A stretch of 64,000 nt of DNA from Sphingomonas montanisoli (GTDB lineage Bacteria > Pseudomonadota > Alphaproteobacteria > Sphingomonadales > Sphingomonadaceae): NCBI RefSeq assembly GCF_008274695.1, contig NZ_VTOU01000006.1, positions 1 to 64,000 of the forward strand, read 5' to 3'. Positions 14,724 to 62,890 of this stretch are shown one piece after another (position 1 is the first letter of the stretch; each line of letters opens with the position of its first letter). The position numbers and the translations under genes are program-made. The notes under the pieces are model-generated. The model saw only the letters and a list, made by a program, of their open reading frames with translations. It was not told the DNA's origin and ran no database searches.

Positions 14724-14742
14724 ATCCCCCTAGCTGGGGGGA
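14724..14742. other. C-run/G-run hairpin near the origin
   Basis: ATCCCCC and GGGGGAT arms flank a short loop (centre TAGCT). It lies between the palindrome at 14657 and the ssb gene. Its function is unknown; a single-strand initiation hairpin is conceivable. Confidence 0.35.
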
Positions 14743-36711: not shown

Positions 36712-36739
36712 GGCCATCCCCCTGACCGGGGGGATGGCC
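36712..36739. terminator. Strong 11-bp hairpin upstream of palindrome copy 1
   Basis: GGCCATCCCCC and GGGGGATGGCC are perfectly complementary around a short loop, followed by GAAAA. It may terminate transcription in either direction or be part of the partition/regulatory region. Confidence 0.5.
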
Positions 36740-48677: not shown

Positions 48678-49647
48678 AATACACCTCCTCGACTTCGAAT
48701 TTTCCGGCGCGCTTGCGGGTCTGGACGACGACGTCGACGAGCATGTGCAACAGCCCACGGATATCGTCGCGGGCCAGATCGCGTCCGCCCTCCGACTCTT
48801 TCACCAGCAGGGTAAGCTGCTCGAAGGCGCCCATGGCCGAGCCGGCATGGACGGTCGTGATCGAGCCGGGATGGCCTGAGTTGACGTTGCGCAGATAAAA
48901 GAAGGCAGTGCCGTCGCGCAGTTCCTGCAGGAGGATGCGATCGGGCCGCATGCGCAGCGCACTTTCGAGCAGCTGCTTGGGGCCGACTTTGGCCAGGCCC
49001 TGTCGCTCGCTCGAATAAACCATGTGCACGACATTGCGATGCTCGACGACGAGCTCGCGCGTATCCTCGATCGTGAGCAACCGCTCGTCGGGCGGGATCA
49101 ACTGGATTAGCGCCTTGGCGAAGGTGGTCTTGCCCGATCCGGTCGCGCCGCTCACCAGGATGTTCTTGCGGGCCGCAACGGCGGTCCTGAAGAAAGCTGG
49201 CCAGTCGCCGGCGTCGCGCTGCGCAACCAATTGGGCATCGACCTCGCCAAGCCCAAGCGCCGCTGAACGGGTTCCCTTGAACAGGCCGGTCTGCGCGAGC
49301 TGATCGATCGCAAGGTTGACCCGGGAAGGCTTGCGCACCGTAAAGGACGGCGCACCGTTCGGCGTCACCGAGGGTATGACGATCTGGCATCGCTCCCCGC
49401 CGGGCAAAATGGTCGAGCAGATCGGGGTCTCGGCATTTACGTCCTGCCGGGTGAAGCTTGCGGCCGCGACGGCCAGCGTCGCCAGCCAGTCGCTGTCGAG
49501 TTCGGCGACGCTATGCCAATGCCAACCGCGATGATCCTCGATGCCAACCTCGCCGGGCTTGTTGATCACCAATTCGGTGACCTCGACCGGCTCCAGCAAC
49601 GGCAGGATCGGCGCGAGATAATGGCGCAGGACAGCGGTATCGCTCAT
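48643..49647 (-). CDS. virB11: T4SS ATPase VirB11
   Basis: A 334-residue hexameric AAA-type ATPase. Walker A is GATGSGKTTFAKALIQ near 167, the Asp box is TIEDTREL, and Walker B is RMRPDRILLQELRDGTAFFYLRNVNSGHPGSITTVHA. It powers pilus assembly and DNA translocation at the inner face of the membrane. It starts 2 bp after the virB10 stop and overlaps virD4. Confidence 0.94.
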   Translation of the reverse strand: MSDTAVLRHYLAPILPLLEPVEVTELVINKPGEVGIEDHRGWHWHSVAELDSDWLATLAVAAASFTRQDVNAETPICSTILPGGERCQIVIPSVTPNGAPSFTVRKPSRVNLAIDQLAQTGLFKGTRSAALGLGEVDAQLVAQRDAGDWPAFFRTAVAARKNILVSGATGSGKTTFAKALIQLIPPDERLLTIEDTRELVVEHRNVVHMVYSSERQGLAKVGPKQLLESALRMRPDRILLQELRDGTAFFYLRNVNSGHPGSITTVHAGSAMGAFEQLTLLVKESEGGRDLARDDIRGLLHMLVDVVVQTRKRAGKFEVEEVYFDPTVGRTTTH

Positions 49648-49649
49648 CC

Positions 49650-50885
49650 TCAGCGCCGCAGTTCGAGATTGTAGACGTCGGCGAAGTTGAAGTCCTTGGC
49701 GACGAAGATCCCGACCTCCTCGCCCTGGTTCTTCTTCAGCACCGGTCGGATGTTGATGCTGTTCTGGAGCGCGATGCTCGCCCCCTCGCTCGGCGTGCGG
49801 GTCGTGTTGTTGAAATTGTTGCTGCCGCCGGAGACGGACTGACCGGCGATATAAGCGGCGTCGTCGACCAGCGAGAGCAGCAACGCGCTACCGAAGCGCG
49901 CCCAGAAAAAGGTGTCCACGGACCCGGCGATGCCGGCGCGGCCAAGAGCGTCCGACCCCGGCGAAGCCAGGTCGATGCGCACGCCCTGCGGCGTGACGGC
50001 CCGCGTCCACAACACGAACAGGCGGTTCTGCCCTTGCTGGATGCCGCCATGATATTCGCCGAGGACTTTTGTGCCCTTTTCCATGAGCACGACACGGCCA
50101 TTCTCCGAATAGACGTCGCGCGGAATCAGGCACGAGGTGTAACCGGGCTGCGCCGAATTCATCGCTGTTTGGAGGATGCACGGGATCAGCGTGCCGGCGG
50201 TGACGAGATAATTGCGATTGGGCAGCATCGAGGCCCGTGCCTCGCCGACCGCCGAACTCTGTCGAAGCGCGTCGAGCGCATTGGGTGCGCCGCGGGCGGC
50301 CGTATCGTTTGCACCATCGCCACCGTCCGGACTGGCGGTGCCGCTACCTGCGCCACTTCCACCCGCCGATGGCTGTAGCGCATCGCGCCCTCCATAGGCG
50401 ATCAATGTCGATCGCCGTGCCTGGTCGGCCAGGTTCTGGCGCGTATTCTGCGGCGCGCCCGCCGGCGCTGCGCCCGGTTGCATGGCAGGAACGATCTGTC
50501 CGTCAGGGCCGACGACCTGCGTGCCAGCCGGAGGATTGATGACGGGTGCGTTGGGATCTGCGGCGAGAGTGCCAAGCGGCTTGGGTTTCGCCGCGACGGC
50601 ATCATACGCGACGGTCTCGCGCGCTGCCAGATCGGGGCGTTTGGCCATCGACTCCGGTTTGCCCATCAGGCTGCCGGCATTGTTGGCGCTTGGCCCCGAG
50701 TTGACCCACAAGATGCCGAGAACCATCGCCGTACCGGCGAAAATCAGGGCGGTATTCCGCTTTGCCGGTGTCATCCCGCCGATCGGATCGATGCCGCGCT
50801 CGCGGATGATTTCGTCGCGTTCAGGTGTTGGATCGCCTTGCGGGCGACGAGGGGCCTCGGCCGCAGACTCGTCCATCGCGCTCAC
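49650..50885 (-). CDS. virB10: T4SS core component VirB10
   Basis: 411 residues. A cytoplasmic N-terminus and one membrane helix (about 44-60) are followed by a Pro/Ala/Gly-rich periplasmic linker. The C-terminal VirB10/TraB beta-barrel domain starts at about 220 (NYLVTAGTLIPCILQTAMNSAQPGYTSCLIPRDVYSENGRVVLMEKGTKVLGEY...RLFVLWTRAVTPQGVRIDL). The antennae region near 330-345 (SVDTFFWARFGSALLLSLVDDAAYI) would form the outer-membrane pore. It overlaps virB9 by 4 bp. Confidence 0.94.
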   Translation of the reverse strand: MSAMDESAAEAPRRPQGDPTPERDEIIRERGIDPIGGMTPAKRNTALIFAGTAMVLGILWVNSGPSANNAGSLMGKPESMAKRPDLAARETVAYDAVAAKPKPLGTLAADPNAPVINPPAGTQVVGPDGQIVPAMQPGAAPAGAPQNTRQNLADQARRSTLIAYGGRDALQPSAGGSGAGSGTASPDGGDGANDTAARGAPNALDALRQSSAVGEARASMLPNRNYLVTAGTLIPCILQTAMNSAQPGYTSCLIPRDVYSENGRVVLMEKGTKVLGEYHGGIQQGQNRLFVLWTRAVTPQGVRIDLASPGSDALGRAGIAGSVDTFFWARFGSALLLSLVDDAAYIAGQSVSGGSNNFNNTTRTPSEGASIALQNSINIRPVLKKNQGEEVGIFVAKDFNFADVYNLELRR

Positions 50886-51739
50886 TCCTTCGGGTCTTGT
50901 ATGGTGCGTTCGACATGCGGCGACGCTGTGTTGGTGCCGTGATCGACGCCGAAGGGTGTCGGCGCGAGATTATAGATGCACAGCACCTCCCGGTTCCGGC
51001 GTAGCCGCAGTTGAGCCGCCACGGCGTGAACGACCACGAACTCGTCCCGGACATCGAATGGGACCAACGTCTCCGAGCCGTCCGGGCGCACGAGATAAAT
51101 CGCCGGTATCTCATGATTGCCGGGGAAACGCAGGACCGTGAACTGGCCGTTGTCGGAGATCTCCGACGGCTGAAGATCGCTCGCACCCTGGACCTTGTAG
51201 TTCAGATTGCGCGGTCCATCGATGACGCCGTGGTCAAGGGCTCCCCGAACGGCGCTCGCCTGCAATGCCGCGACGCGCTGTGCTTCTTGCGTCGCGCGCA
51301 TGCGAGCGGCTCGGTCAGCATCATCGCGCGGATAGCGAAACCGAACCTGGAAGAACGTATCGCGGCTCCCGCTGCCGATCGGTCCCCGGCGTGCTGTCAG
51401 TTCGAAGGCGTAGTTGCGCAGCCCACCCCCGCGATTGGTCGTGACGATAAGGTTCGTCGGTCCGGCCCGCTCACGCGGCTTCAGGAACAGAATGTGACCG
51501 GCAACCGCCACTTCCCAGGAGACGGTGTCGCCGAGCGCGACATGTTCGATCGTCTCGTCGGCGCTGAGCACGACCTGGGTCGCCGTCCGGAATGTGCCGA
51601 CGATCCGGTAGACCTGGGTCTCCTGATACTCGACGAACTTCACACGTGGATCCGCCGGCCCGCCGCGCGGCGTGTCCTCCGCGAGCGCTGGTGTCGCTAA
51701 AATGGCGAGAAGGCCCGCTATGGGAAGAAGGCGGTTCAC
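50882..51739 (-). CDS. virB9: T4SS core component VirB9
   Basis: 285 residues with a signal peptide (MNRLLPIAGLLAILATPALAED). The N-terminal VirB9 domain has TFRTATQVVLSADETIEHVALGDTVSWEVA and LFLKPRERAGPTNLIVTTNRG. The C-terminal domain that joins VirB7 and VirB10 in the outer-membrane complex has NLNYKVQGASDLQPSEISDNGQFTVLRFPGN. It overlaps both virB8 and virB10 by 4 bp. Confidence 0.93.
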   Translation of the reverse strand: MNRLLPIAGLLAILATPALAEDTPRGGPADPRVKFVEYQETQVYRIVGTFRTATQVVLSADETIEHVALGDTVSWEVAVAGHILFLKPRERAGPTNLIVTTNRGGGLRNYAFELTARRGPIGSGSRDTFFQVRFRYPRDDADRAARMRATQEAQRVAALQASAVRGALDHGVIDGPRNLNYKVQGASDLQPSEISDNGQFTVLRFPGNHEIPAIYLVRPDGSETLVPFDVRDEFVVVHAVAAQLRLRRNREVLCIYNLAPTPFGVDHGTNTASPHVERTIQDPKE

Positions 51740-52425
51740 CGCACCACCTCGGGGTCCGCGCGGTAATTCTCGACCTGGAACCCCAGTGGGTTACGATAGC
51801 GGTCGCCCTCCGCCATCGGCGCATTCGTGTACCGGAAGGTGACAGTCGCGATCCAGTCGCTGCTCTGCGTGTCGGTATCGGTCTGGACTGTTCGCGTGAA
51901 GCGGACGTTGGCGACACGATCGTTGATGAAGGCAATATTGCGCACGCGGGCCTGCACGACCGCACCCTTGCCCCACACGACCTGTGGACTCGCGGCGTTG
52001 TTCGAGCTGAAAAACCGGCCCCAGCGTTGCTGCTCGCCTGGTTCAGACAGGATAGTGACGGCGCGGAAATTCTCTTCGGCCGCCGCCGGCAACCAGCTTT
52101 CCCGGGTCCGGACATATTGCGCGAGGAAGAATTTCGTGACCGCCTCGTCATAGCGCATCGGCTTCTGGGTGACGGTGGTCTGCACGTCGACGGCGCCCGT
52201 CGTCTGGTTGACCCGAATGATGTACGGCATGACCGTCTTCAGCGGCGCAAGGCCCGCGAGTGCGAAACCCTCCGCGGTTGCGGCAAGCAGGCCCAGGCCG
52301 GCCACCATCCAGGCGATGCGTTCGGACCGTAACGATTTGCGCTGACGGTCCTGATCCCAGGATCGGGCGTGGCCGAAATAGAGTTCGGCGTCCTTGGCCG
52401 GGACACCTTCGGTCTGATTCCGCAT
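51736..52425 (-). CDS. virB8: T4SS inner-membrane component VirB8
   Basis: 229 residues. A short cytoplasmic N-terminus (with the AELYFGHARSWDQDR motif) and one membrane helix (about 38-58) are followed by the NTF2-like periplasmic VirB8 domain (TVTQKPMRYDEAVTKFFLAQYVRTRESWLP...VRFTRTVQTDTDTQSSDWIATVTFRYTN). It is a scaffold linking inner-membrane and core parts. It starts 2 bp after the small virB7-position gene and overlaps virB9 by 4 bp. Confidence 0.93.
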   Translation of the reverse strand: MRNQTEGVPAKDAELYFGHARSWDQDRQRKSLRSERIAWMVAGLGLLAATAEGFALAGLAPLKTVMPYIIRVNQTTGAVDVQTTVTQKPMRYDEAVTKFFLAQYVRTRESWLPAAAEENFRAVTILSEPGEQQRWGRFFSSNNAASPQVVWGKGAVVQARVRNIAFINDRVANVRFTRTVQTDTDTQSSDWIATVTFRYTNAPMAEGDRYRNPLGFQVENYRADPEVVR

Positions 52426-52427
52426 GA

Positions 52428-52739
52428 TCAGCAGCTTCCATAGGTGCTGGGAGCCGTTCGCGCCGATGTCTTCTCGGACAAAGGAACGGGCGGGGGCGGT
52501 GTGCCGCGATCAGCTGGTTGCTTGATCTGCGGCACGGGTGGTGAGGCAGGGGGCGCCACCACGGCGGGGATGGGCGAGCCCGGCAGTACGCTCCCATAGA
52601 TGTTGACGTCGCGCAGGTGCTTGCCATTGCAGACGGGCAGTTTCTTCGGCCCGGAAGCCCCTTGGGCGAGCGTTGGGAGCAGCGCGATGACGATGGCCGT
52701 TCGTCGGAGCGCACGGACTATCGTGGACGGCCTCGTCAT
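52428..52739 (-). CDS. Small secreted protein in the virB7 position
   Basis: 103 residues from the ATG at 52739, preceded by AGGAAGGAA. A signal peptide (VIALLPTLAQGASG) is followed by KLPVCNGKHLRDVNIYGSVLPG and a proline-rich tail. Unlike classical VirB7 there is no lipobox cysteine after the signal, so lipid anchoring is not predicted. Two cysteines could form a disulfide. The position between virB6 and virB8 suggests a VirB7-like stabiliser. A longer frame to 53489 is antisense-like extension into virB6 and is rejected. Confidence 0.65.
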   Translation of the reverse strand: MTRPSTIVRALRRTAIVIALLPTLAQGASGPKKLPVCNGKHLRDVNIYGSVLPGSPIPAVVAPPASPPVPQIKQPADRGTPPPPVPLSEKTSARTAPSTYGSC

Positions 52740-52753
52740 TGGGTGTTCCTTCC

Positions 52754-53698
52754 TCATGCGCGGCTGACCGAACCGCCGCGCTGAGCGGCCCGTTCGAGAT
52801 TGCGACTGTTGCGAGCGATACGGCGTTGCTGGAACGGTGCCGCCATGGACCCCCACGCAGAGCCGGCGAAAGCGCCGATGCCGGCGGACGCGCCCCCGGC
52901 AATGCCGGTCGCGATCGAGGGGGCCTGGAAAAAGAAGATTGTGCCGAGGAAGATGTAGACTGCGAACAAGACCGCGCCGATCGTAACGTCCGGCGTCCCT
53001 TGGGCCGCTGTAAGCGCGGTGGCGCCGAGATCGGTGATGAGCGCTGTGATGGCGATGATCACCGCCATCAGGACGATGTAGTTGAACACCTGTCCGAGCC
53101 AACCGTAGAAGAAGCGCTGCGTGGTTTCGAACAGTGACAGTGCGATGAAAATCGGCCCGAGCGCGATCACGACAGCAAGCGCCACTTTCGCGAACACGGT
53201 TATCGCAAATCCGATTGCCGCGGAGAGACCTGCCAATCCGTAAATCGCGACTGCCAGCGTAAGCAGGACGAGCTTCCATGGGTTGATGTCCAGATAGGTC
53301 GCGGCCTCGGTCCTGATGATGAGAACGATGGAATCGACCTGGCCGAAATAATCGTCGAAAACCGCACCGACGCTGGTGATGGTCTTGCCCGCAAGCGCTT
53401 GGGAGATGGCATCCGGCATCCCGTGGAAAAGCGGGTCCGTGATCCACTCGGAATAAGCGACCGTAGTAGCCGCGACATAGAGCAGGCACAGCTTCACCAT
53501 CCGGTAGACGAGCTCGCCCCAGGGCTCGCTGACGATTCCGCGCATCACCATGTAGCCGAACAGGGCGATGTAGATGACTAGGCCAAGCGCCAGCGGTCCC
53601 CGCACGACATCAATGACGTTGGTGAGACGCTCGTTCAGGAAGAGATCGAGCTTACCGTCAATGTTGGTGTAGATATCCGCGAAGAGTGTGGACGCCAT
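52754..53698 (-). CDS. virB6: T4SS polytopic membrane protein VirB6
   Basis: 314 residues from the ATG at 53698 (GGGGAA upstream). At least six membrane helices and the TrbL/VirB6 region (YGLAGLSAAIGFAITVFAKVALAVVIALGPIFIALSLFETTQRFFYGWLGQVFNYIVLMAVIIAI). It forms part of the inner-membrane DNA path. A TTG 6 bp upstream is an alternative start. The C-terminus is basic and lies 15 bp before the virB7-position gene. Confidence 0.9.
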   Translation of the reverse strand: MASTLFADIYTNIDGKLDLFLNERLTNVIDVVRGPLALGLVIYIALFGYMVMRGIVSEPWGELVYRMVKLCLLYVAATTVAYSEWITDPLFHGMPDAISQALAGKTITSVGAVFDDYFGQVDSIVLIIRTEAATYLDINPWKLVLLTLAVAIYGLAGLSAAIGFAITVFAKVALAVVIALGPIFIALSLFETTQRFFYGWLGQVFNYIVLMAVIIAITALITDLGATALTAAQGTPDVTIGAVLFAVYIFLGTIFFFQAPSIATGIAGGASAGIGAFAGSAWGSMAAPFQQRRIARNSRNLERAAQRGGSVSRA

Positions 53699-53712
53699 GG
53701 CCAATTCCCCGC

Positions 53713-53931
53713 TTATTTATGGCCCAGCGAACGCTCGAGCTTGTCAGCGTTCTCGACGTCTTTTGCGTTGCTACACTCCTGAGCATTGGTGTGGGTGCCG
53801 TCGGCGCACGCGGCGAGGATTTCAGCGCGCAGCTTGGGATCGGACTTCAGGTCCGCCTTGCCGACCGGCTGTCCGCAACCACTGAGGAGCATGGCCGTCA
53901 GAACGGGCAGAATCGCCACGCTCCCCTTCAC
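53713..53931 (-). CDS. EexN-type entry-exclusion lipoprotein
   Basis: 72 residues. A lipoprotein signal (AILPVLTAMLLSGCG, lipidated Cys19) is followed by KADLKSDPKLRAEILAACADGTHTNAQECSNAKDVENADKLERSLGHK, the pattern of EexN-family proteins. These sit between virB5 and virB6 in many conjugative plasmids and stop a cell from receiving a second copy of the same plasmid. It overlaps virB5 by 4 bp. Confidence 0.85.
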   Translation of the reverse strand: MKGSVAILPVLTAMLLSGCGQPVGKADLKSDPKLRAEILAACADGTHTNAQECSNAKDVENADKLERSLGHK

Positions 53932-54644
53932 GGCCGACTACTCAGGCTCTGCTGAAGCTTGGCGAGGCCGGTTTCGTCATCTCGCTGCGAACGCAGCCTC
54001 GCCTCGGCGGCCTGCCGCATCTGAAGTGCCTGAAGCTGGACAGCGTCGTTCTGGATATGCGCATTCTCGACGCCAATCCGGGCCTGAATATCCATCACGT
54101 CCTTTGCATCAGATGCGGTGTCGAGCGATGATCGCAACTCCTCAAGACCTGTCGTCCGCTTCGTCGTGACGCCATAAGCTGCTTCGGCAATGGCGGCATC
54201 CCGCGCCGCCATTTCTCCATTGCGAGAAATCGAATCGCGGTTCGAGCGCTCGAAAGACGTCGCATCGGGGCGCAGCTCGGGAAGCTCGACGCGGTTGCTG
54301 CTACGGATCCGATCTGCGGCGGTCCCAAGGCTACCGAGGCCAGTGGTGTCGGATGACATGAGGCGCTGAATATCCCGTGCTTCGCTCGGCAAGAGGTGGC
54401 GAACGGCATCGGTGTTCAGGGACGAGGCAATCTGATTGACGTTCGTCAGTTTGTTGACGCTGTTGTAGAGCTCGGTTGCCTGCGAAATCTGCTGCTTTCC
54501 CTGTTCGATCATCGACAGGGTGTTCTTCACCGTCGAGAGCGTCTGCAGGAAGGTGCTGGAATCATAGACCGGGATGCCCTGCGCAAATGCCGGCATGGAC
54601 ATTGCCAGTCCGCCGACAATCGCCAGCGCTTGAATTACCTTCAT
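53928..54644 (-). CDS. virB5: T4SS minor pilus component VirB5
   Basis: 238 residues from the ATG at 54644, with an AGGAAAGGATAAGG ribosome binding site. A signal peptide (MKVIQALAIVGGLAMSMPAFAQG) is followed by a long helical domain (TFLQTLSTVKNTLSMIEQGKQQISQATELYNSVNKLTN...) and more coiled helices to the C-terminus, as in VirB5/TrbJ-type pilus-tip adhesins. A longer frame to 54752 overlaps virB4 and is not supported. Confidence 0.87.
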   Translation of the reverse strand: MKVIQALAIVGGLAMSMPAFAQGIPVYDSSTFLQTLSTVKNTLSMIEQGKQQISQATELYNSVNKLTNVNQIASSLNTDAVRHLLPSEARDIQRLMSSDTTGLGSLGTAADRIRSSNRVELPELRPDATSFERSNRDSISRNGEMAARDAAIAEAAYGVTTKRTTGLEELRSSLDTASDAKDVMDIQARIGVENAHIQNDAVQLQALQMRQAAEARLRSQRDDETGLAKLQQSLSSRP

Positions 54645-54648
54645 GACC

Positions 54649-57066
54649 TTATCCTTTCCTTCTGCTGGTGACCCGACGGCGCTCGTGAAAGACGGGCAGC
54701 CAGTCGCTGGGATCGTCGCCATGTTCGCGGCGAACCTGATCGAGGATTCCAACGGTTTCGGTGGTGCCCGAGAGGACGGCCAGTTCGTCGGACAGCCCGC
54801 CGAGATCGAGTTCCACGACGATGGAATCGTGACCCTGCTTGACCAGGAAGCGCCGGCTTTCGGGGATCAGATCGTTTCTGATGAGTTTGAACTCGGCGCG
54901 GGTGAGGCCAAGACCATCGATATAATCGACCTCCCGGCCATGCGGGTTGGGCAAGAGGATCTTGGTTGCGACCTGCTCCATGATGCTATGCGAGATGTCC
55001 GAGCGCAGTGCGTCGGCCGGGCTTTGCGTGCCGAAGACCAGAAAGGCATTCTGCTTCCGGTAGGTTTTCAGGCCGTCCTGCGCGAACGCGCGGAAGGCAT
55101 CATCGCCCAGCGCCTTCCAGAACTCGTCGATGTCGATCACGAGGCGACGGCCATCGAGCAAGGCATCGATCCGGTGGAACATGTACATCATGAGCGGCGT
55201 GCGGATCTCGGGATTGTCGAGGAAATCCGTCATGTCGAAACCGATGAACCGGGCCTCGAGGGTCAATTCGTCCCGGTCATTGTCGAACACCCAGCCAAGC
55301 GCTCCGCCGCGTGACCATTTCTCAAGCCGCGCGCCTATCCCTTCCGGATCGCGCTGTCCGAGCAATTGACGTAGCGCTAGAATAGACCGTTCTTCCGGGG
55401 GAAGACGTCCGATCGAAAGGATGCCCTCGTCGATCATCCGCTCCTGCGTGACGCCGAGCTGGGTGCCCGAGGGGGTCACCAGATGCCGGATCAGCCTGCC
55501 GAGGAAGACGATGTTGCCGGGGGTCTGCTCGAGCGCCCGGAGCGGCGCGAAGCCGGTCGGCACGCCGTTGCGCAGCGCCAGATACGTGCCTCCGGATGAC
55601 CGTACATAGATTTCGGCGCCTCGGTCCTTGTCGATGAAGATCTGCTGCGCGCCGGTTTTCTCGAGTTGCGCCATCAGAAAATTCTGGACGACAGTCTTGC
55701 CGCCACCCGACGGGCCGATGATCAGCGTATGGCCGAGATCGTTCACATGAAAATTGAAGTAGAAGGGGGACTGGGCCGCGGTCTTCATCAACGCGATGGC
55801 AGCGCCCCAATGGTTGCCCTCTGCCTTGCCGGCAGGAAAGGTGTGGAAGGGGGAGAGGGCGGCGAAATTGCGTGACGTGATCGCCGCCGGCCGCGCACGC
55901 CACGCAAAGTTACCCGGAAGCTGCGACCAGAAAGCGGCTTCCAGCGCCGGGCCTTCCCGCGCCGAGACCAGACCGGCATCGGCAAGCGCTGCCCGCGCCG
56001 TTGAGAGATTCTCGGCCAGGCGTTTCTGATTTTCACCGAAGACCGCGAGCGAGAAATGATGCTCCCCCAGGACAAAGCGATTGCTCTGCAGATCGTCGGC
56101 CGCGTCCGCCAGCTCAAGCGCCTGGCTTGCAGCGGCATCCTCGGTCGATGCCATCTGGTTCTGGCGCCGCCGCAGGCGCTCGGAGGCCCGCGCCTTGCCC
56201 ATGAACGCAAAGGACTGCGTGACGACGAACGCGAAATCCTGGCTGAGCAGCGCGTTCATCTGGCCGGGTCGCGTCATGGCCGGATATTCGCGGATACCGA
56301 ACAGACCGACGAAGCGGCTCGTATCATGCGCGCGCACCTCGACCGTCTCGCGGCCGAAGATCACGCGTTCCCCATAGATGGCGGAACCGAGATGGCCGCG
56401 GACCAGCGGCACCCTGCCGGCGCGGCCCATCATTACCAGCTCGAGCACCTCAAGCGGCTGGGAGAACATCAGGCCGTTATGCTCGTAGAGGTGCAGACGC
56501 CGAGGCCGGCAGCGTGCGAGGAGCTTCTCGATATCGCGCGCCTTGTCCTCGAAGCGTGCGAGCTCATCCTCGTCCACCTCGGTCCCTTCCTTGCGCGCCG
56601 ACGCCAGACGGCGAAGCAGCACGCCGGTGCGGTCGGCCGATCCCACGGACGGGCGCATGATCAGGGTGAGGTACAGTTCGTTGACGAACATCCGCTTGGC
56701 AGTGACCCGCGCACGATATTTTGCATCGAGATCAGCCGCAAAGGCCGAGCGGAACTCGCCTTCGGGATAGTCCGTGATCGGCCGGCGAACGATGTGGGTC
56801 CAGATCGCGAGGCGGTCGTCGGCAATGTTGCGCAGCGTACCGTTGAGCTTCTCGTGCCAGTCGTTGAGATGGACAGGGTCGGCGGTTTCAAACGCCATGC
56901 CTTCGAGCTTGAACATCATCATGAGGTCGCGCCCATCGAGCGCGATGACGTTCTCGTCGATATGGCGCGCATAGGGCAGGTAACGCGCCGGGTCGGCCTC
57001 CTGTTTGAGGATCCGCCATGGCGTGCGGGCTGTCGCTCCGCTCAATGCGCTGGCCCGGCTAGCCAC
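54649..57066 (-). CDS. virB4: T4SS ATPase VirB4
   Basis: 805 residues from a GTG start at 57066 that overlaps the virB3 stop. The VirB4 N-terminal domain (about 30-240) is followed by Walker A GPSGGGKTVVQNF near 450 and Walker B RRLVIDIDEFWKAL. The late motif FLVFGTQSPADALRSDISHSIMEQVATKILLPNP is typical of the family. It energises substrate transfer and pilus biogenesis. The frame continues upstream to 57207, but this only adds Arg/Pro residues antisense-like to virB3. Confidence 0.93.
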   Translation of the reverse strand: MASRASALSGATARTPWRILKQEADPARYLPYARHIDENVIALDGRDLMMMFKLEGMAFETADPVHLNDWHEKLNGTLRNIADDRLAIWTHIVRRPITDYPEGEFRSAFAADLDAKYRARVTAKRMFVNELYLTLIMRPSVGSADRTGVLLRRLASARKEGTEVDEDELARFEDKARDIEKLLARCRPRRLHLYEHNGLMFSQPLEVLELVMMGRAGRVPLVRGHLGSAIYGERVIFGRETVEVRAHDTSRFVGLFGIREYPAMTRPGQMNALLSQDFAFVVTQSFAFMGKARASERLRRRQNQMASTEDAAASQALELADAADDLQSNRFVLGEHHFSLAVFGENQKRLAENLSTARAALADAGLVSAREGPALEAAFWSQLPGNFAWRARPAAITSRNFAALSPFHTFPAGKAEGNHWGAAIALMKTAAQSPFYFNFHVNDLGHTLIIGPSGGGKTVVQNFLMAQLEKTGAQQIFIDKDRGAEIYVRSSGGTYLALRNGVPTGFAPLRALEQTPGNIVFLGRLIRHLVTPSGTQLGVTQERMIDEGILSIGRLPPEERSILALRQLLGQRDPEGIGARLEKWSRGGALGWVFDNDRDELTLEARFIGFDMTDFLDNPEIRTPLMMYMFHRIDALLDGRRLVIDIDEFWKALGDDAFRAFAQDGLKTYRKQNAFLVFGTQSPADALRSDISHSIMEQVATKILLPNPHGREVDYIDGLGLTRAEFKLIRNDLIPESRRFLVKQGHDSIVVELDLGGLSDELAVLSGTTETVGILDQVRREHGDDPSDWLPVFHERRRVTSRRKG

Positions 57067-57394
57067 GTGCGAAGCCCGGGCGCTTCGCCCCGTCGATCGG
57101 CAGGGGAGAGTAGGAGCTGCCGCCCCACCAGCCGCGGTTGCGGCAGCGCGCCTTGGTCGTCGTCCACAGCCACAGCAGTCGAAACGCGTTGGCGTCGTGC
57201 CGGACAATCAGTCGGGCAATCGCCAGAAACGCACCGGCCAATGCGAAAGCGTAGAGCGGGTTGCCGGTGATGATGAGGGTCAGGCACGCTGCCAGCGCGA
57301 TCGGCAGCGACGCCTCGATCGGTACGCCCAACCACATCGTTGGTCGGGTCACGGCCAGGAAGAGCGTCTCTTCCCTAAGCTTTTCGTCGTCCAT
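57059..57394 (-). CDS. virB3: T4SS inner-membrane protein VirB3
   Basis: 111 residues from the ATG at 57394. VirB3/TrbD pattern: LFLAVTRPTMWLGVPIEASLPIALAACLTLIITGNPLYAFALAGAFLAIARLIVRHDANAFRLLWLW, two membrane helices followed by a basic cytoplasmic tail. It works with VirB4 at the base of the pilus. It overlaps virB4 by 8 bp and sits 10 bp after virB2. Confidence 0.9.
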   Translation of the reverse strand: MDDEKLREETLFLAVTRPTMWLGVPIEASLPIALAACLTLIITGNPLYAFALAGAFLAIARLIVRHDANAFRLLWLWTTTKARCRNRGWWGGSSYSPLPIDGAKRPGFARG

Positions 57395-57404
57395 CGCGGC
57401 GCAC

Positions 57405-57746
57405 TCACGCGCCGCCGGTGATGGTATCGACGATCCACTGCGCGCTGAACACGATGAAGATACCGACAATGACCGTCACGAGGAGACCGAGGCTGGCACG
57501 GCCCGTGAAGAACATGAAGCCGACGATGACGACCGCGATCACCGCGATCGTCTTGGCAAATGTGCCGGTCAGCCAGGTCTTGATATTCTCGGCCATCGAC
57601 GTGACGCCATCGGCGGCCTGGGCATGCGCGGGGTCGCTCAGCAGCATCGAAACCAGTATGGCGGTGGCGACGAGCGCCAGCGTCTGGACGAAAGCGCGGC
57701 GACGTGGCGGGAGCCAGGTCGATATGGTCGAGGCGGAGATTGTCAT
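57405..57746 (-). CDS. virB2: Conjugative pilin VirB2
   Basis: 113 residues. A long signal sequence (FVQTLALVATAILVSMLLSDPAHAQA) is cleaved after AHA, then two hydrophobic segments (TIAVIAVVIVGFMFFTGRA and VTVIVGIFIVFSAQWIVDTI) joined by a short loop, the classical pilin layout. It overlaps virB1 by 4 bp. Confidence 0.9.
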   Translation of the reverse strand: MTISASTISTWLPPRRRAFVQTLALVATAILVSMLLSDPAHAQAADGVTSMAENIKTWLTGTFAKTIAVIAVVIVGFMFFTGRASLGLLVTVIVGIFIVFSAQWIVDTITGGA

Positions 57747-58426
57747 TCGGTCGGTCCTTCTCTCGATGGTGGTGTCCCGTCGCCAAACACCATCATCGAG
57801 GCGGTTTGGGCGCGTGCGGAAATGTCCCAGGACCGCGGTGCTTTCACCGCCGTCTGCACAATGCGAGGCTCCTGGATTGGCGTTTCGGATGCGGGTCTTG
57901 GAGGTGCGGGCCTGACCGAGGCTGCGCCGGTTGGCGCTAATCCCCTGATCGCGGGAATGATGACCGCAGAGCTCGCATAGACTCTCGCCACATAGCCGTT
58001 GCCAAAGCCACGGGCCTGGTTTCCGGTATTGTACATCGAAAGAGCAACGGAGATCGCGCGATCGGACGAACCCTGGGTGCGCGCCGCGTCAAGGAAGTTG
58101 CTCGACAGGACCCGCGCTGCGGCGGCGAGATTGCGACAGGGATCGAATGTGTCCTCGACCGAGAGGCCCAGCCATCGAAGATTGGCGCTGTTGATCTGCC
58201 CGAGGCCGAGGTCGATATTATAGCCCTTGGCGATCAACGACCGGGCGATCCGGGCGGCGGCGGCAGGCGTCGCGGGTATTTCGGGTCGGACGCCGCGGGC
58301 GTTAACGCCGATGGCCAACGTGTCGAACTTGCTTTCGGCATGCACGACGGAGACCAGTGTTTCCGGCGCGACCGAAGGCGCGCATTGTTGCGCGAGGGCG
58401 ACGACACTGGCCAGTTGCAGGATCAT
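57743..58426 (-). CDS. virB1: Lytic transglycosylase VirB1
   Basis: 227 residues. The SLT-type fold shows the catalytic Glu in VVHAESKFDTLAIGVN, GYNIDLGLGQINSANLRWLGL, and ALSMYNTGNQARGFGNGYVARVY, all hallmarks of VirB1. It opens the peptidoglycan for T4SS assembly. A disordered Pro/Ala tail follows from about residue 165. It overlaps the TrbM-like gene by 4 bp. Confidence 0.92.
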   Translation of the reverse strand: MILQLASVVALAQQCAPSVAPETLVSVVHAESKFDTLAIGVNARGVRPEIPATPAAAARIARSLIAKGYNIDLGLGQINSANLRWLGLSVEDTFDPCRNLAAAARVLSSNFLDAARTQGSSDRAISVALSMYNTGNQARGFGNGYVARVYASSAVIIPAIRGLAPTGAASVRPAPPRPASETPIQEPRIVQTAVKAPRSWDISARAQTASMMVFGDGTPPSREGPTE

Positions 58427-58785
58427 TGTGATCCCATTTCGGCTGAGTCCGGACCCGGCGTGAGGCGCTCGATATTGGCCAGCGAATAGGTTTGTTGCCG
58501 ACCATCGGCAAACGTCATCACGACACGGCGGCGGGTGGCGGAGTCGCGGTCGTAAACTCTCGTCTTCGCGACACCGCCGCCGCTACAGCCGGGAAAGGAG
58601 CCGCCGGTCGCCAGCTTTTGCCAAAGCTTGGTCATCGGGGGAATGCACGCGCCATATTGCGTCGCACCGCCCGGATTTGAGAGGCAAAGCAGAACCTGGC
58701 AGCCGAGGTCGTTGGCTCGCGCCGGAACCGCCTGGGCGGACATCACCAAGACCGGCACGGCAAGGGCAAAGCGCAGGCGCTGCAT
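58423..58785 (-). CDS. TrbM/KikA-like conjugal transfer protein
   Basis: 120 residues with a signal peptide (MQRLRFALAVPVLVMSAQAVPARA) followed by DLGCQVLLCLSNPGGATQYGACIPPMTKLWQKLATGGSFPGCSG, the cysteine pattern of TrbM family periplasmic proteins. TrbM-type proteins help pilus or mating-pair formation. It is the first gene of the transfer operon, 128 bp downstream of phyH on the same strand. Confidence 0.78.
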   Translation of the reverse strand: MQRLRFALAVPVLVMSAQAVPARANDLGCQVLLCLSNPGGATQYGACIPPMTKLWQKLATGGSFPGCSGGGVAKTRVYDRDSATRRRVVMTFADGRQQTYSLANIERLTPGPDSAEMGSQ

Positions 58786-58886
58786 CTGATTTCTCCGCTT
58801 TTCAGCGCCGCTGCATTAAAAATGCGCCGACCACTCTCCGTTGAAAATCACCTCTCTTTTGAACCCGGCGCGGCATTTTCGGGCAA

Positions 58887-58904
58887 TCCCCCCACAAGGG
58901 GGGA
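58887..58904 (-). terminator. Weak hairpin after phyH
   Basis: TCCCCCC-ACAA-GGGGGGA forms a 7-bp stem 10 bp after the phyH stop. There is no T-run, so any termination would be partial and lux-module transcription could run on into the transfer operon. Confidence 0.35.
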
Positions 58905-58913
58905 GCGCGCCGA

Positions 58914-59825
58914 TCAGATTTCGTTCGATGCGGCGCGCAACCGGCGCTGACCTTCCAGGAATTCCTCAAGCGCTTCCGCTTGATCTGGACGTAACGCATC
59001 GATCGCGCCGAGATGGTCGAAACGCTCGTCCCCGAGCAGAATAGACGGGCATCGCCCTTCGTAATTCCCCAGATTGGGTCTGTGCTGCTGATAGCCGATC
59101 AGTGCGGCCAGGCTGGGTGCGAACGTGCGCGCCACTTCAGGCGGATACACCAGCCATTGATTTTCGTATGGTTTCAGCCACCCCAGGCAGTAGCTCACGA
59201 TCATGCCCCGACGCACATCGGACGACTTGTTGCCGCCAGCGCCGTGAAGCGTCGAGCCGAGAAAGACAATCGCAGATCCCGGGCTGCATTCCACGGCAAC
59301 CGGCTCCTCGGGAGGCTCCGGATTCAGCGCTTTTGCGGCGTGACTGCCCGGCCAGATCAGGGTCGTCCCATTGTCAGCCCGATAGTCGGTGAACGGCCAC
59401 ATCACGTTGATCAGATATTCGATTTCTCCGGTCTGGCCGCCCCACATATCCTGATCCCGGTGTGGAAACTGCGGCAGGGCACCCGGGTGCAGTTCAAGTG
59501 CCTGGGCGAGATTGAGCTGGATCGTGTCACACCACGGGCCGAGTACCGCCTGCGCCATCTCAATGATCTGCGGGTGCTGGATAAACGCCGGCGCATGTCG
59601 GGATCGCTTGAGCAGACTCCCGAACCGTTTGGTGCGAGCACCATAAAATCCGCCTTCACAAAACGGCGTTGCCTCAAAATGAGGAGCAAGATCTGCGGCC
59701 AACAGACCGACGTCGCGCACCGGCATCAGGTTCGGCACAACGCAAAAACCCTCCGCCAACAATGTCTCGCAGAGCGAATGATGCGGCTCAGACCCGAGCG
59801 TCGCGGATGCTAATTTCGTCGCCAT
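58914..59825 (-). CDS. Phytanoyl-CoA dioxygenase-family Fe(II)/2-oxoglutarate oxygenase
   Basis: 303 residues. The PhyH iron triad is H122-x-D124 (FPHRDQD) and His194 (STLHGAGGN), with an arginine near 205 for 2-oxoglutarate. It lies 18 bp downstream of luxI in the same operon. Such PhyH genes accompany luxI in several sphingomonads. It may modify an acyl chain that is part of, or competes with, the signal, but its substrate is unknown. Confidence 0.85.
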   Translation of the reverse strand: MATKLASATLGSEPHHSLCETLLAEGFCVVPNLMPVRDVGLLAADLAPHFEATPFCEGGFYGARTKRFGSLLKRSRHAPAFIQHPQIIEMAQAVLGPWCDTIQLNLAQALELHPGALPQFPHRDQDMWGGQTGEIEYLINVMWPFTDYRADNGTTLIWPGSHAAKALNPEPPEEPVAVECSPGSAIVFLGSTLHGAGGNKSSDVRRGMIVSYCLGWLKPYENQWLVYPPEVARTFAPSLAALIGYQQHRPNLGNYEGRCPSILLGDERFDHLGAIDALRPDQAEALEEFLEGQRRLRAASNEI

Positions 59826-59843
59826 ATCATGATCTCCCAGTTC

Positions 59844-60458
59844 TCAGGCAGCCGCGCGATCGAGATCCATCAGCTGGATCGACGTGAAGATGCCGGATTG
59901 GCGCAGCAGGCCCGGTGTCGCCGGTGAAATATCTATCCGCATCGCAGACAGGCCGCGGTCGGCGCTGCTTGGCATCCCGAGCGGAAGGCATTGCCAACCA
60001 AATGCGAGGATCTGCTGAAACCACGCCCACTCAGCAACGCCGGTATATGTCGTGATGCCGTTGCAAAGGGCATGTTCGACCAGAGCGGACACGAGACGAT
60101 TGCGCGTCGCAAGTCGCTCGCGAGCCTTCAGCCGGCGCGCCAAGCAAAAGCGTGTAATCTCGCGGACCGTCGGGCCTGCTGGCGGGATATCGTCACATAG
60201 GTAGGGGAAAATTGTGTCCAGGATGTGCGGTCGGTCCGTCCGAAGCAGACGGGCAGATCCACAATGCTCGCCTGTCTCATCGGTCACGACAATATAGGTC
60301 GCTTCGTCGTCATCGAACTGGTCGATCTCATATCGACCGGCGAGAACGGGAATGTCCCAGCCAAGCAGATCAACAAAGACTAGCTTGCGTTCCTCAAACA
60401 TCGAGCGAAACAGGCGGTCACTCAATGCCTGTTCAATACCATTACTAATAACAACCAT
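59844..60458 (-). CDS. luxI: Acyl-homoserine lactone synthase, LuxI family
   Basis: 204 residues. All key LuxI residues are in place: Arg24, Phe28 and Trp34 (RKLVFVDLLGW), Asp46 and Asp49 (EIDQFDD), Arg70 (GSARLL), Glu100 and Arg103 (REITRFC). It makes an acyl-homoserine lactone from SAM and an acyl carrier protein. The acyl chain length cannot be told. It is preceded by GAGGAGG and a 16-bp dyad 55-71 bp upstream that could be its LuxR site. Confidence 0.92.
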   Translation of the reverse strand: MVVISNGIEQALSDRLFRSMFEERKLVFVDLLGWDIPVLAGRYEIDQFDDDEATYIVVTDETGEHCGSARLLRTDRPHILDTIFPYLCDDIPPAGPTVREITRFCLARRLKARERLATRNRLVSALVEHALCNGITTYTGVAEWAWFQQILAFGWQCLPLGMPSSADRGLSAMRIDISPATPGLLRQSGIFTSIQLMDLDRAAA

Positions 60459-60513
60459 AACGCACCTCCTCGTGAGAGGCCGTCAATCGAGCAGGTTGTA
60501 ATGAGCGGCGTTA

Positions 60514-60529
60514 TCCCCAGAACTGGGGA
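60514..60529. promoter_or_regulatory. Candidate lux-box-like dyad upstream of luxI
   Basis: TCCCCAG-AA-CTGGGGA, perfect 7-bp arms, centred 63 bp before the luxI start codon and just after the luxR1 stop. Confidence 0.55.
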
Positions 60530-60531
60530 GA

Positions 60532-61281
60532 TCAGCGCCGGAGAATGTCAGTGAAGCTGATGGCTCCGTCGAACAGCGCCCGAATGGCGAGCATCGTTCG
60601 CTTCGTCACACCATAGCGGTCGCGGGCATCTTTCAAATGCTGGGTTACCGTTTCAACCCCGACGCCAAGGATCCTGGCGATCTCCCAATCGGTCTTTCCC
60701 CGCGCGACAAGCGCTACGCATTCTGTTTGCCGATCGGTGAGTTGCGGGGCGGGCGGGATGGGCGCGATGCCCGATCGGGCTATCTTGCGAGCGGCCTCAA
60801 ATGCAAAACTGCCTACGAGCTGGACCAGCGGCAATTGCACATCCTCCAGTTCCTCCCCGTTGCGCATAGCAAACGAGCATGATCCGTTCGCCTCGCCGGG
60901 GATATGGGCGGGGATTGTAAATCCGTCGCCGAGGCCGGCCGTGCGAGCCGCAGCGAGTACGGCGTGATCGCGCGGGTTCAACGTGATCAGCGTTGCTACC
61001 TTCGACCAGGTGAAGCCGACGGTCGTGGTGTGGCTGGCGCGATGTATCGGGTCGGCTGCATACAGCCGACCCTCTTCGAACGCATCGACCCAATCTCGAG
61101 GATAGCTGACGAGGCGAACGATTGTGCTGCCAGGACTCAGTAAATCGATGTGATGCACGAGCGCAAAATATCGAAACCCCATCGCTGCCGTGATTTCTTC
61201 GACAGCCTGCATGAGAGCATGAGGGGTGGTAGCGGCACGGGCAACGGTGCAGAATGCCTGCACTTCGGCAAGGGTGATCAT
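60532..61281 (-). CDS. LuxR-family autoinducer-binding regulator 1
   Basis: 249 residues. The N-terminal autoinducer-binding domain keeps the expected aromatic and acidic ligands Trp64, Phe68, Asp77, Pro78 and Trp92. The C-terminal GerE-type HTH is PQLTDRQTECVALVARGKTDWEIARILGVGVETVTQHLKDARDRYGV. It lies directly upstream of luxI and 20 bp downstream of a second luxR. This duplication hints at division of labour between activation of luxI and of other targets. Confidence 0.9.
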   Translation of the reverse strand: MITLAEVQAFCTVARAATTPHALMQAVEEITAAMGFRYFALVHHIDLLSPGSTIVRLVSYPRDWVDAFEEGRLYAADPIHRASHTTTVGFTWSKVATLITLNPRDHAVLAAARTAGLGDGFTIPAHIPGEANGSCSFAMRNGEELEDVQLPLVQLVGSFAFEAARKIARSGIAPIPPAPQLTDRQTECVALVARGKTDWEIARILGVGVETVTQHLKDARDRYGVTKRTMLAIRALFDGAISFTDILRR

Positions 61282-61301
61282 GAACCGCCGATCTGCTTGC
61301 G

Positions 61302-62078
61302 CTACACGAGAGCCTCAATATTGAGATGGCCGTCGCGAACAGCGCGAAGCACCAGCTGCGTTCGGCGCCGGACGCCATAACGGCGGCGCGCGCCTTCGAC
61401 ATATTCGTGGACCGTATCGCGGCTCAGGCCCAGAATCTGGCCAATTTCCCAGTCGCTTTTCCCTTGTGCCACGAGGTCAAGGCAGTCGATCTGGCGAGGG
61501 CTGAGAGCTATCGGTATGTTTGCCAGTTCATCGGGACCCAGAAGGCTACGCGCCCGGTCGAACGCAACCGTGCCAACCAAACGGGCCGAAAGAAGGTCCG
61601 GGCTCGAAATCATCTCGTCGCCTTGGCGCGCCACCGTGAATATCGCGTCGGGCTCGTCGCGCATCCTGATCGGCATGGTGAACCCAGCTGCCAGTCCATG
61701 CGCGCGGCCCCGCTCCAGGATGGATAGCTGGCGCGCATTGGGCGCGATGTAGTCCCCGATCTGATCCCAGGTGAGCCCGGAGACGGTCTTGGCACAGGCG
61801 GCGTGGACCGGATCCTCCATGTAGAGGCGTGCATCCATCACCTCCTCGATCCAGCGCACCGGGTAGGTGGTTATGAGGAGAGCTTTGCGGGTGGTCCGTT
61901 TCAGATCGACATTATGCACCAATGCGAACCAGCGGAACCCGAACTGACGCACGATCGCATCGAGCATGGATTTGAGTTGGTCGAGGGTCGTCGCCTGCCG
62001 GCATTCTGCTTCGAACGCAGTGATGTCACCCAGGCGACCGGCATCTTTCAAACTTCCCATAATGCGAACGGTTCGCAT
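61302..62078 (-). CDS. LuxR-family autoinducer-binding regulator 2
   Basis: 258 residues. The binding domain has Trp76, Asp89, Pro90 and Trp104, but the position that is Tyr in most acyl-HSL receptors is Val80, a change expected to reshape the pocket. The HTH is IALSPRQIDCLDLVAQGKSDWEIGQILGLSRDTVHEYVEGARRRYGV. It is the first gene of the luxR2-luxR1-luxI-phyH cluster. The divergent intergenic region carries a striking 30-bp dyad. Confidence 0.88.
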   Translation of the reverse strand: MRTVRIMGSLKDAGRLGDITAFEAECRQATTLDQLKSMLDAIVRQFGFRWFALVHNVDLKRTTRKALLITTYPVRWIEEVMDARLYMEDPVHAACAKTVSGLTWDQIGDYIAPNARQLSILERGRAHGLAAGFTMPIRMRDEPDAIFTVARQGDEMISSPDLLSARLVGTVAFDRARSLLGPDELANIPIALSPRQIDCLDLVAQGKSDWEIGQILGLSRDTVHEYVEGARRRYGVRRRTQLVLRAVRDGHLNIEALV

Positions 62079-62218: not shown

Positions 62219-62248
62219 GTGACACTTTACCTCGGGGCAAAGTGTCAC
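62219..62248. promoter_or_regulatory. 30-bp dyad between the lux cluster and a divergent gene
   Basis: GTGACACTTT-N10-AAAGTGTCAC, with 10-bp perfect arms. It lies 140 bp upstream of luxR2 and 76 bp upstream of the gene at 62324, in a good position for a shared operator. Confidence 0.6.
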
Positions 62249-62323: not shown

Positions 62324-62890
62324 ATGTTGCACGCTCCGATCATTGGCGACGGCCGCCCGCAACTGGATATGCCCAGCTTGCTGGAGATGCTTGCGCGGTC
62401 CTCGTCTCGACCGCGCTACGCTTTCATGGTGCTCAACCTGATTGCACAGGTTTCCAGATCCGACGGCAGCGCGGGGCCTTTGGTGGCCAAGGGCGGCGGC
62501 CTCATTCCCTTGCGTGACTGGCTTTGTGACGCGCTCACCCCGATGGGGCAGCGTGACCCCCGGCGCGTTGCCCTGGAAGAGCGGATACGCAGCGATCTGG
62601 AAATGTCGGGCGCATTGCCCGCCAACGTCGATCAGGCCACGGCAATCATCGACGACGCCATCCGCGAGCAAGTGCGGGCGTCGGGAAAAACGAATGTGAG
62701 CCGAGCGGTATCGGAACTCGTGCGTGCTGGCTTGCTCAAGCGGCACTATCAGGGCTATTGTGTCGATCATCATAATCGCGGTGCGCAGCGCCAAGCCGTC
62801 TATGTTCTGGCAGGGTGCGCGCGCGGTCTCATCGGCGGCCAACCGGAGCAGCCGAGAGCGGTTCCAAGGCAGGCAGAACTGGCGTTCTGA
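62324..62890 (+). CDS. Putative winged-helix regulator of the transfer/lux region
   Basis: 188 residues. The C-terminal half (IIDDAIREQVRASGKTNVSRAVSELVRAGLLKRHYQGYCVDHHNRGAQRQAVYVLAG) has a winged-helix layout: helix, helix with a recognition segment (VSRAVSELVRAGLL), then a strand wing. The N-terminal 90 residues contain a second helical domain. There is no ribosome binding site at the ATG and no family I can name. It runs divergently from luxR2, with a 30-bp dyad between them, suggesting linked control. Confidence 0.55.
   Translation: MLHAPIIGDGRPQLDMPSLLEMLARSSSRPRYAFMVLNLIAQVSRSDGSAGPLVAKGGGLIPLRDWLCDALTPMGQRDPRRVALEERIRSDLEMSGALPANVDQATAIIDDAIREQVRASGKTNVSRAVSELVRAGLLKRHYQGYCVDHHNRGAQRQAVYVLAGCARGLIGGQPEQPRAVPRQAELAF

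Follow-up and report, generated by a model that had tools for sequence, protein, structure and literature searches.

Gan et al. 2015 (PMC4288048) gave the name topology T to the gene order luxR2-luxR1-luxI-phyH ahead of transfer genes, and phyH beside luxI is described in the available parts of Gan et al. 2013 (PMC3704786) and Gan et al. 2016 (PMC5012321). We analyzed a locus of this kind in a 64,000-nucleotide stretch of Sphingomonas montanisoli DNA (positions 1 to 64,000 of contig NZ_VTOU01000006.1; hereafter, the window), where these quorum-sensing genes run into a conjugation operon that encodes a type IV secretion system (T4SS). By its gene order and its family, Sphingomonadaceae, the locus is a member of topology T as the available parts of PMC4288048 describe it. 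The initial annotation had spoken of a previously undescribed twist, a claim that falls for the gene order with that paper and for the luxI-phyH linkage with the other two. Relative to the same parts of PMC4288048, which contain no functional results, we add putative operators, plasmids that carry LuxR2 alone beside the same T4SS, and a genome count of luxI and phyH. Judged by titles and abstract openings, none of the papers found tests control of transfer by this locus; such a study may still exist.

On Ti plasmids, TraR/TraI form a LuxR/LuxI pair encoded on a conjugative plasmid. The window resembles them in its LuxR/LuxI proteins on a predicted conjugative plasmid and in proposed boxes at both transfer and maintenance genes, but it has two receptors, a different box, a VirB-type T4SS directly downstream, and phyH. 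The initial likening of the locus to Ti plasmids survives at most for the logic, because its proteins lie far below the NCBIfam cut-offs: LuxR1 and LuxR2 each score 46 against 250 for TraR, and LuxI scores 55 against 250 and 62 against 292 for TraI. The Novosphingobium luxR-luxI-phyH units (available parts of PMC3704786 and PMC5012321) likewise have phyH directly behind a luxI of the same synthase family, and some of their synthases make C8, 3-OH-C8, and 3-OH-C10 acyl-homoserine lactones (AHLs; PMC5012321, in the part available). These units have a single luxR, however, and unlike the window, the sampled places with one or no luxR (n = 128) lack a same-strand T4SS downstream. On pRL1JI of Rhizobium leguminosarum, BisR detects the signal made by CinI and switches on traR, according to the accessible part of a review (PMC10134790). 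Two LuxR proteins are encoded beside transfer genes there as well, and transfer responds to the AHL of another synthase; in contrast, LuxR2 of the window appears, in this comparison by description, to face the transfer operon itself. For Dinoroseobacter shibae, another alphaproteobacterium from a different family, AHL-mediated T4SS expression on plasmids is given in a title (PMC4886583), and the likeness is drawn from that title.

We propose that the plasmid governs its own transfer by a two-receptor AHL circuit, a model to which we assign roughly even chances as a whole. LuxI would make an AHL, and AHL-bound LuxR1 would bind the box preceding luxI to promote luxI-phyH transcription in positive feedback; this transcription would read through into X-virB, the transfer operon headed by the small gene X. 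The other AHL receptor, LuxR2, would be devoted to transfer, binding a dyad (V) ahead of X-virB and also dyads P (ahead of parAB-mobC-relaxase) and, in the window, S (ahead of ssb-primase). With these dyads shared, pore, DNA-processing, and establishment genes would respond jointly. The luxR1-luxI-phyH genes would form a removable signal cassette, and plasmids without the cassette (listeners) would retain both LuxR2 and the site that it binds, and they may hear the signals of others. PhyH would oxygenate the AHL, either modifying or removing the signal.

The signalling unit and the transfer operon

The genes luxR2-luxR1-luxI-phyH lie on one strand ahead of the transfer genes at the coordinates first assigned to them, with Pfam matches over the cut-off, and the spacing between phyH and X is 128 bp, as noted at the outset. 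The transfer run, put at 14 genes, has that number when counted from virB1 and 15 when counted from X.

luxR2, 61302..62078, minus strand: AHL-receptor LuxR; Autoind_bind 89.6 bits, GerE 45 bits (Pfam)
luxR1, 60532..61281, minus strand: AHL-receptor LuxR of the luxI pair; Autoind_bind 104 bits, GerE 36 bits (Pfam)
candidate lux box TCCCCAGTTCTGGGGA, 60514..60529, minus strand: ahead of luxI, 16 bp
luxI, 59844..60458, minus strand: AHL synthase; Autoind_synth (PF00765) 70.7 bits against a cut-off of 24
phyH, 58914..59825, minus strand: member of the luxI-linked clade of Fe(II)/2-oxoglutarate oxygenases; PhyH (PF05721) 71.3 bits
site V dyad TCCCCCCTTGTGGGGGGA, 58887..58904, minus strand: proposed LuxR2 operator of X-virB, 18 bp
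X-virB leader, 58786..58904, minus strand: leader of the transfer operon
gene X, 58423..58785, minus strand: small protein heading the transfer operon, called as an open reading frame (ORF)

Recurrence of the arrangement was assessed across 397 genomes of the family, our own included, of which 122 have luxI and 275 do not. The 149 luxI places among the matches listed (weaker ones missing) gave 151 luxI genes; dropping 13 with less than 2.5 kb on a side left 138 neighbourhoods that reach at least 2.5 kb to either side, in 114 of which luxI is followed by phyH. A same-strand T4SS lies downstream at 10/10 loci with two luxR genes versus 0/128 with one or none, the ten coming from few lineages, with L016-L019, L021, and L022 near-identical. 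This comparison supports the original idea of a module coupled to conjugation. The gene order of the window was also found again in 10 other genomes of the family and on plasmids, so that, on comparative grounds, the arrangement is not chance. Against an exclusive pairing of two receptors with transfer genes stand the single-luxR loci L027 and L128, which have a T4SS nearby in another orientation, and the single-luxR unit of pLpl beside a coupling-protein gene; two receptors are thus not the sole form near transfer genes.

The box in front of luxI is the proposed target of LuxR1. Each of the 15 aligned T loci has TCCCCAGNNCTGGGGA between luxR1 and luxI, 13 of them exactly and 2 with one arm change, and the exact box is a single site in the 4.1-Mb genome. 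With W at position 11 and at most one mismatch, the pattern is found once on each of 9/9 cassette plasmids and on 0/5 listener plasmids. Up to three mismatches, it stands at the same position in 28 of 115 non-redundant upstream regions of non-T luxI genes, against a mean of 0.3 and a maximum of 3 in single-base shuffles. TCCCCAGNNCTGGGGA therefore belongs to a wider luxI motif. A further luxI-type box serving as a target elsewhere was considered and rejected: the sole one-mismatch genomic site (C1:438983) sits within long ORFs.

The proteins have the features expected of an AHL system. Autoind_bind with GerE and the pocket residues Y/W/D/W mark the LuxR proteins as AHL receptors, and LuxR1 retains the Y, W, D, and W, for which we assume the usual residue names. 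At the position of LasR Y64, LuxR1 has F and LuxR2 has V; at the one that we take to be TraR E178, both have Q. The true start of luxR2 may lie a few codons inside the annotated ORF. In LuxI, R24, F28, and W34 are present, each more than 90% conserved; these are synthase residues according to the list in the available part of PMC3704786. The contig (131,690 bp) encodes a Rep3 initiator, ParA, and a relaxase and is, for that reason, most likely a plasmid. Since LuxI and the two AHL-receptor LuxRs are the sole ones detected genome-wide, the whole AHL system resides on one replicon.

Gene X overlaps virB1 by 4 bp and is retained ahead of virB1 in related T4SSs; it had no family match in Pfam, NCBIfam, or PHROG. 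By Pfam, the MPF_T VirB-type conjugation set is complete, comprising virB1-6, virB8-11, virD4, and a relaxase. The operon continues as follows.

virB1 lytic transglycosylase, 57743..58426, minus strand: Pfam SLT
virB2 pilin, 57405..57746, minus strand: Pfam TrbC
virB3, 57059..57469, minus strand: Pfam VirB3
virB4 ATPase, 54649..57207, minus strand: Pfam CagE_TrbE_VirB
virB5, 53928..54752, minus strand: Pfam T4SS
EexN-like small lipoprotein, 53713..53931, minus strand: ORF, named from the position of annotated EexN in relatives
virB6, 52754..53704, minus strand: Pfam TrbL
VirB7-like small ORF, 52428..52739, minus strand: within ORF 52428-53489, start approximate; presumably VirB7, from its position
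virB8, 51736..52425, minus strand: Pfam VirB8
virB9, 50882..51739, minus strand: Pfam CagX
virB10, 49650..50885, minus strand: Pfam TrbI
virB11, 48643..49647, minus strand: Pfam T2SSE
virD4 coupling protein, 46665..48758, minus strand: Pfam T4SS-DNA_transf
LPD7-domain protein, 45716..46684, minus strand: end of the run, Pfam LPD7

Dyads V, P, and S and their candidate binder

The gap between phyH and X had been described as holding only a weak hairpin; it actually holds a conserved dyad. TCCCCC-N6/8-GGGGGA stands at -115 to -122 of X in 30/30 loci irrespective of the gene in front (24 loci with the cassette, 5 listeners, and 1 with luxI deleted, near-duplicates included; L105 and L172 are one plasmid), and the dyad with ATTG occurs exactly once per record in 15/15 records. 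On these counts, we rejected the gap as an ordinary spacer with a chance hairpin. Its context varies: V is intergenic in the clade of the window, lies inside the 3′ end of phyH in clade B, and follows luxR2 in listeners. The exact motif occurs three times in the window, where 60 dinucleotide shuffles gave a mean of 0.017 and a maximum of 1. The other two copies precede plasmid maintenance and DNA-processing genes.

site P dyad TCCCCCTGACCGGGGGGA, 36717..36734, plus strand: V motif exact, ahead of parA-parB/korB-mobC-relaxase
parA, 37093-37857, plus strand: Pfam
parB with KorB domain, 37854-38792, plus strand: Pfam
MobC/NikA-like protein, 39093-39629, plus strand: Pfam
relaxase, 39622-40761, plus strand: Pfam
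site S dyad TCCCCCTAGCTGGGGGGA, 14725..14742, plus strand: V motif exact, ahead of ssb-primase
SSB, 14880-15200, plus strand: Pfam
Toprim primase, 15281-16180, plus strand: Pfam

Site P is present in 14/15 records, with a parB match 0.35-1.16 kb away on 13 plasmids having P. A third plasmid site is present in 6/15 records, its context (ssb-primase) being known from the window only. The exact motif was found in 20/20 LuxR2-bearing records (pCFD-1-2 being scored as LuxR2-bearing on a 54.6% two-piece match) versus 0/11 records with LuxR2 missing or cut short, an absence judged among the 60 matches listed. In the T4SS relatives without a luxR beside X, the dyad is absent there (2/2), and one of the two, pCFD-1-2, has a dyad copy and a diverged LuxR2 elsewhere on the plasmid.

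We think it somewhat more probable than otherwise that LuxR2 is the dyad binder, a preference based on its conserved DNA-binding end, the half-sites common to the dyad and the luxI box, and a distant locus, L311. Among 20 LuxR2 proteins, mean identity is 92% in the DNA-binding end versus 67% in the ligand half, and dyad and luxI box have TCCCC/GGGGAT in common. At L311 (1726-3085), a sigma-70-family gene is followed by a gene for a LuxR2-like protein, 51% identical, that keeps the HEY-E-ARRRY recognition stretch absent from LuxR1, and a V-type dyad lies 78 bp ahead of this operon. A TrbC-type T4SS gene was also seen about 3 kb from the L311 operon, on the opposite strand. A scan with a 23-base dyad through one genome from each of 84,980 species returned at least 120 stretches. 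Of the 120 listed, 9 are at X-virB, 11 at parA of the plasmid family, and 1 at L311; the other 99 had no match to the plasmid-family queries.

Several observations weigh against LuxR2 as the binder and against the circuit built on it. All T plasmids share one backbone, and any constant backbone protein will therefore correlate with the dyad as LuxR2 does. At 18 bp, the dyad exceeds the 16-bp luxI box by 2 bp, and site P can be extended to an interrupted palindrome of 28 bp. An exact motif also lies on a chromosomal contig of the same genome (C9:125794). L152 and four listeners match the 115-bp leader of the window at 95.7-98.3% identity, their luxR2 DNA being 84-86% and their X-virB4 DNA 79-80% identical (except L174, 96.6%); elsewhere leader identity is low (L172, 71%; clade B, 58-63%; L176, 51%), and recombination could explain the conservation in the subclade of the window. 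No sigma-70-like promoter was found in the scanned stretch. The circuit as a whole is drawn from sequence comparison.

Among backbone proteins, the main rival as binder is ParB/KorB. KorB acts at operators on IncP plasmids, and V, P, and S could be operators of ParB/KorB or of another backbone regulator. LuxR1 and LuxR2 would then be confined to the luxI box, and quorum control would reach the transfer genes by read-through from luxI. Behind site P lies the gene for a ParB with a KorB domain, matched on 14/14 T plasmids; sites ahead of par, tra, and ssb-primase genes resemble those of a global plasmid regulator; and P is a long interrupted palindrome, the usual LuxR sites being shorter than 28 bp. 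However, no exact dyad lies within 16 kb of the 63%-identical ParB/KorB paralogues of pTB1 (W14) and pSWIT02 (W10), the LuxR2-like gene of L311 has its V-type dyad with no ParB/KorB match in the surrounding 8 kb, and the half-sites shared with the luxI box point to a LuxR protein. We regard the ParB/KorB alternative as rather unlikely, with LuxR2 remaining our preferred binder.

The GC-rich stem before X might instead act in the transcript as a hairpin for processing or attenuation, adjusting virB downstream of luxI-phyH. It can pair in RNA, and it lies near a gene boundary. Yet no T run follows the stem, which in clade B sits inside the coding end of phyH and in listeners has no luxI-phyH ahead of it, and copies of the dyad occur elsewhere on the plasmids. 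An RNA element appears improbable, and a LuxR2 operator remains the favored reading of V. Terminator-like sites were absent from the phyH-X gap (three in the scanned stretch, all intragenic, against a mean of 4.2 in shuffles). Rfam gave 0 matches.

Upstream of luxR2, a second candidate site was considered.

inverted repeat GACACTTT...AAAGTGTC, 62221..62246, no strand assigned: between luxR2 and the divergent gene; perfect, unique in the window
divergent gene, 62324..62890, plus strand: no known family; matched in 21/24 T loci, highly conserved

The repeat and the divergent gene are jointly missing from L105, L159, and L172, three loci in which luxR2 is kept. We therefore rejected the repeat as a LuxR2 site; it probably belongs to the divergent gene, which had no match in Pfam, NCBIfam, PHROG, or the Protein Data Bank and may be an autoregulated plasmid gene. 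Separately, 18 REP-like palindromes of the form TCCCCC-TGGC-GGGGGA-GGATTG, or near variants, were seen on contigs C1, C8, C9, C10, and C11 of the S. montanisoli genome (G000).

Plasmids with and without the signal cassette

LuxR2 was matched on every one of the 26 plasmids that carry this T4SS, judged by VirB4 identity of at least 83.8%; one of them (TKS, CP005085) was scored as LuxR2-bearing despite a match of only 48% in two pieces. PhyH of the clade is present on 20, two of which have phyH broken, and absent from 6. Five of the six, pSWIT02, pBAR4, pANTQ-1, pUPO218, and pTB1, have luxR2 (66-91% identical) directly before X-virB with no luxR1-luxI-phyH between; the sixth is CP139980, a sister of pTB1. 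luxI is missing from four of the five listener records, and pSWIT02 has a weak 24-bit fragment elsewhere. Further upstream of its luxR2, pTB1 has another luxR as well as the remnant of a truncated one. With LuxR2 on 26/26, phyH missing from 6, and luxR2 facing X-virB in the 5 read, we infer that producer and listener plasmids exist, and listeners would respond to foreign AHL. The available part of PMC4288048 lists three luxR solos and no luxI in S. wittichii RW1, and one of these solos is taken to be LuxR2 on pSWIT02. The paper on strain MPO218 shows a different plasmid, pIBU218, to be conjugative.

The trees require at least three changes of cassette state, and recombination is likely. The transfer genes of pBAR4 are 96.6% identical to those of the window and its luxR2 is of the listener type (84%), a combination that suggests a module swap. 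In one genome (G362), a T locus has lost luxI together with the end of luxR1 and the beginning of phyH through an internal deletion, with luxR2, the dyad, and X-virB kept. An IS3 element interrupts phyH on one plasmid, luxI and phyH are both frameshifted on pTSSC1 (possibly a sequencing error), and about 3 kb separates luxI from phyH on a plasmid of S. baderi.

These losses also bear on whether the cassette merely hitch-hikes on the plasmid and exerts no control over conjugation. Of five cassette-less plasmids, four were typed as conjugative, as would be the case were the cassette a passenger. Passenger status fits poorly, however, with LuxR2 and the dyad persisting in listeners and in the luxI-deleted locus, and with a two-luxR form that, among the sampled luxI neighbourhoods, always accompanies a T4SS. 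We consider hitch-hiking a minor contender beside control of transfer through LuxR2.

PhyH and its link to luxI

The proposal that phyH belongs to the signal gains support from co-occurrence at the genome level. The PhyH clade, counted at E ≤ 1e-55 with remoter PhyH proteins outside the count, is present in 97 of the 397 genomes: 96 of the 122 with luxI and 1 of the 275 without, the latter being G362 with its luxI-deleted T locus. PhyH is more conserved than LuxI in 86% of locus pairs (means of 0.57 versus 0.50; 91 loci). The iron- and 2-oxoglutarate-binding residues H122, D124, H194, and R205 are invariant in 71 sequences, as expected for the family. An AlphaFold2 model of PhyH (pLDDT of 92) has a fold that matches the fungal enzymes AndA, TlxJ, PrhA, and SptF, and the nearest solved relatives are fungal terpenoid/alkaloid (natural-product) oxygenases; among 41 PhyH profile matches at E ≤ 1e-10, the sole one named phytanoyl is fungal AsqJ. 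The resemblance of the model to AndA, TlxJ, PrhA, and SptF suggests a small molecule, rather than an acyl-CoA, as the more probable substrate. That this small molecule is the AHL itself seems to us slightly favored by the co-occurrence with luxI. On 2-oxoglutarate enzymes that hydroxylate AHLs, a literature search listed one review.

PhyH could also make or alter another small molecule, such as a lipid, under quorum control, its gene co-occurring with luxI as a target gene. Three observations that count against an AHL substrate belong here. luxR-phyH occurs without an adjacent luxI at L182, L184, L185, and L189, whose genomes have luxI elsewhere, and at L181, where the luxR match is weak (22 bits). 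The luxI genes of a relative, placed alone in Agrobacterium, yield AHLs seen in the native strain in a screen against standard AHLs (PMC5012321, in the part available), so these AHLs formed without PhyH. Moreover, 26 of the 122 luxI genomes lack the clade. The solved fungal natural-product relatives fit a non-AHL substrate as well. Its weak points are the near absence of the clade from luxI-free genomes, where the single case is a luxI-deleted T locus, and the loss of luxI from four of the five tested among the six phyH-less T4SS plasmids, the fifth having a weak fragment. In our judgment, a non-AHL substrate is less probable than oxygenation of the AHL.

The genomes holding L181, L182, L184, L185, and L189 also have some luxI genes without an adjacent phyH. 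On a Methylocystis iwaonis plasmid (L154), a 63%-identical PhyH was seen near an IS21 element, with no annotated luxI in the stretch read. A single-luxR luxI-phyH unit lies on the conjugative plasmid pEN1 (L162); the identity of its PhyH, 58.8%, is also listed for Variovorax and Hydrogenophaga plasmids (Betaproteobacteria), and the unit thus seems to have left the sphingomonads. At L160, L161, L166, and L170, single-luxR luxI-phyH is followed by genes for a GntR regulator, a sigma factor, a FecR-like protein, and a TonB receptor; at L161, the FecR-like gene is DUF4880, and a lasso-peptide isopeptidase is annotated too. These downstream genes suggest another recurring target set.

In its widest form, the proposal is that LuxR2 represents a separate class of transfer regulator with a V/P/S regulon, that plasmids of the family swap between producer and listener states, with listeners conjugating on the signals of others, and that PhyH-modified AHL sets who understands whom. 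We hold this extension to be doubtful. Many of the listed plasmids of this kind come from strains whose stated source is contaminated soil, activated sludge, or waste water. If a dedicated AHL receptor sets transfer, cell density and the signals of mixed communities would decide plasmid spread, and listener plasmids, if they act as proposed, would clearly exemplify mobile elements that cheat or eavesdrop on one another's signals. The dyads offer exact DNA targets for binding and reporter tests. The luxI-dependent presence of PhyH, in turn, makes its role in bacteria, posed as a question in the available part of PMC5012321, an assayable matter.

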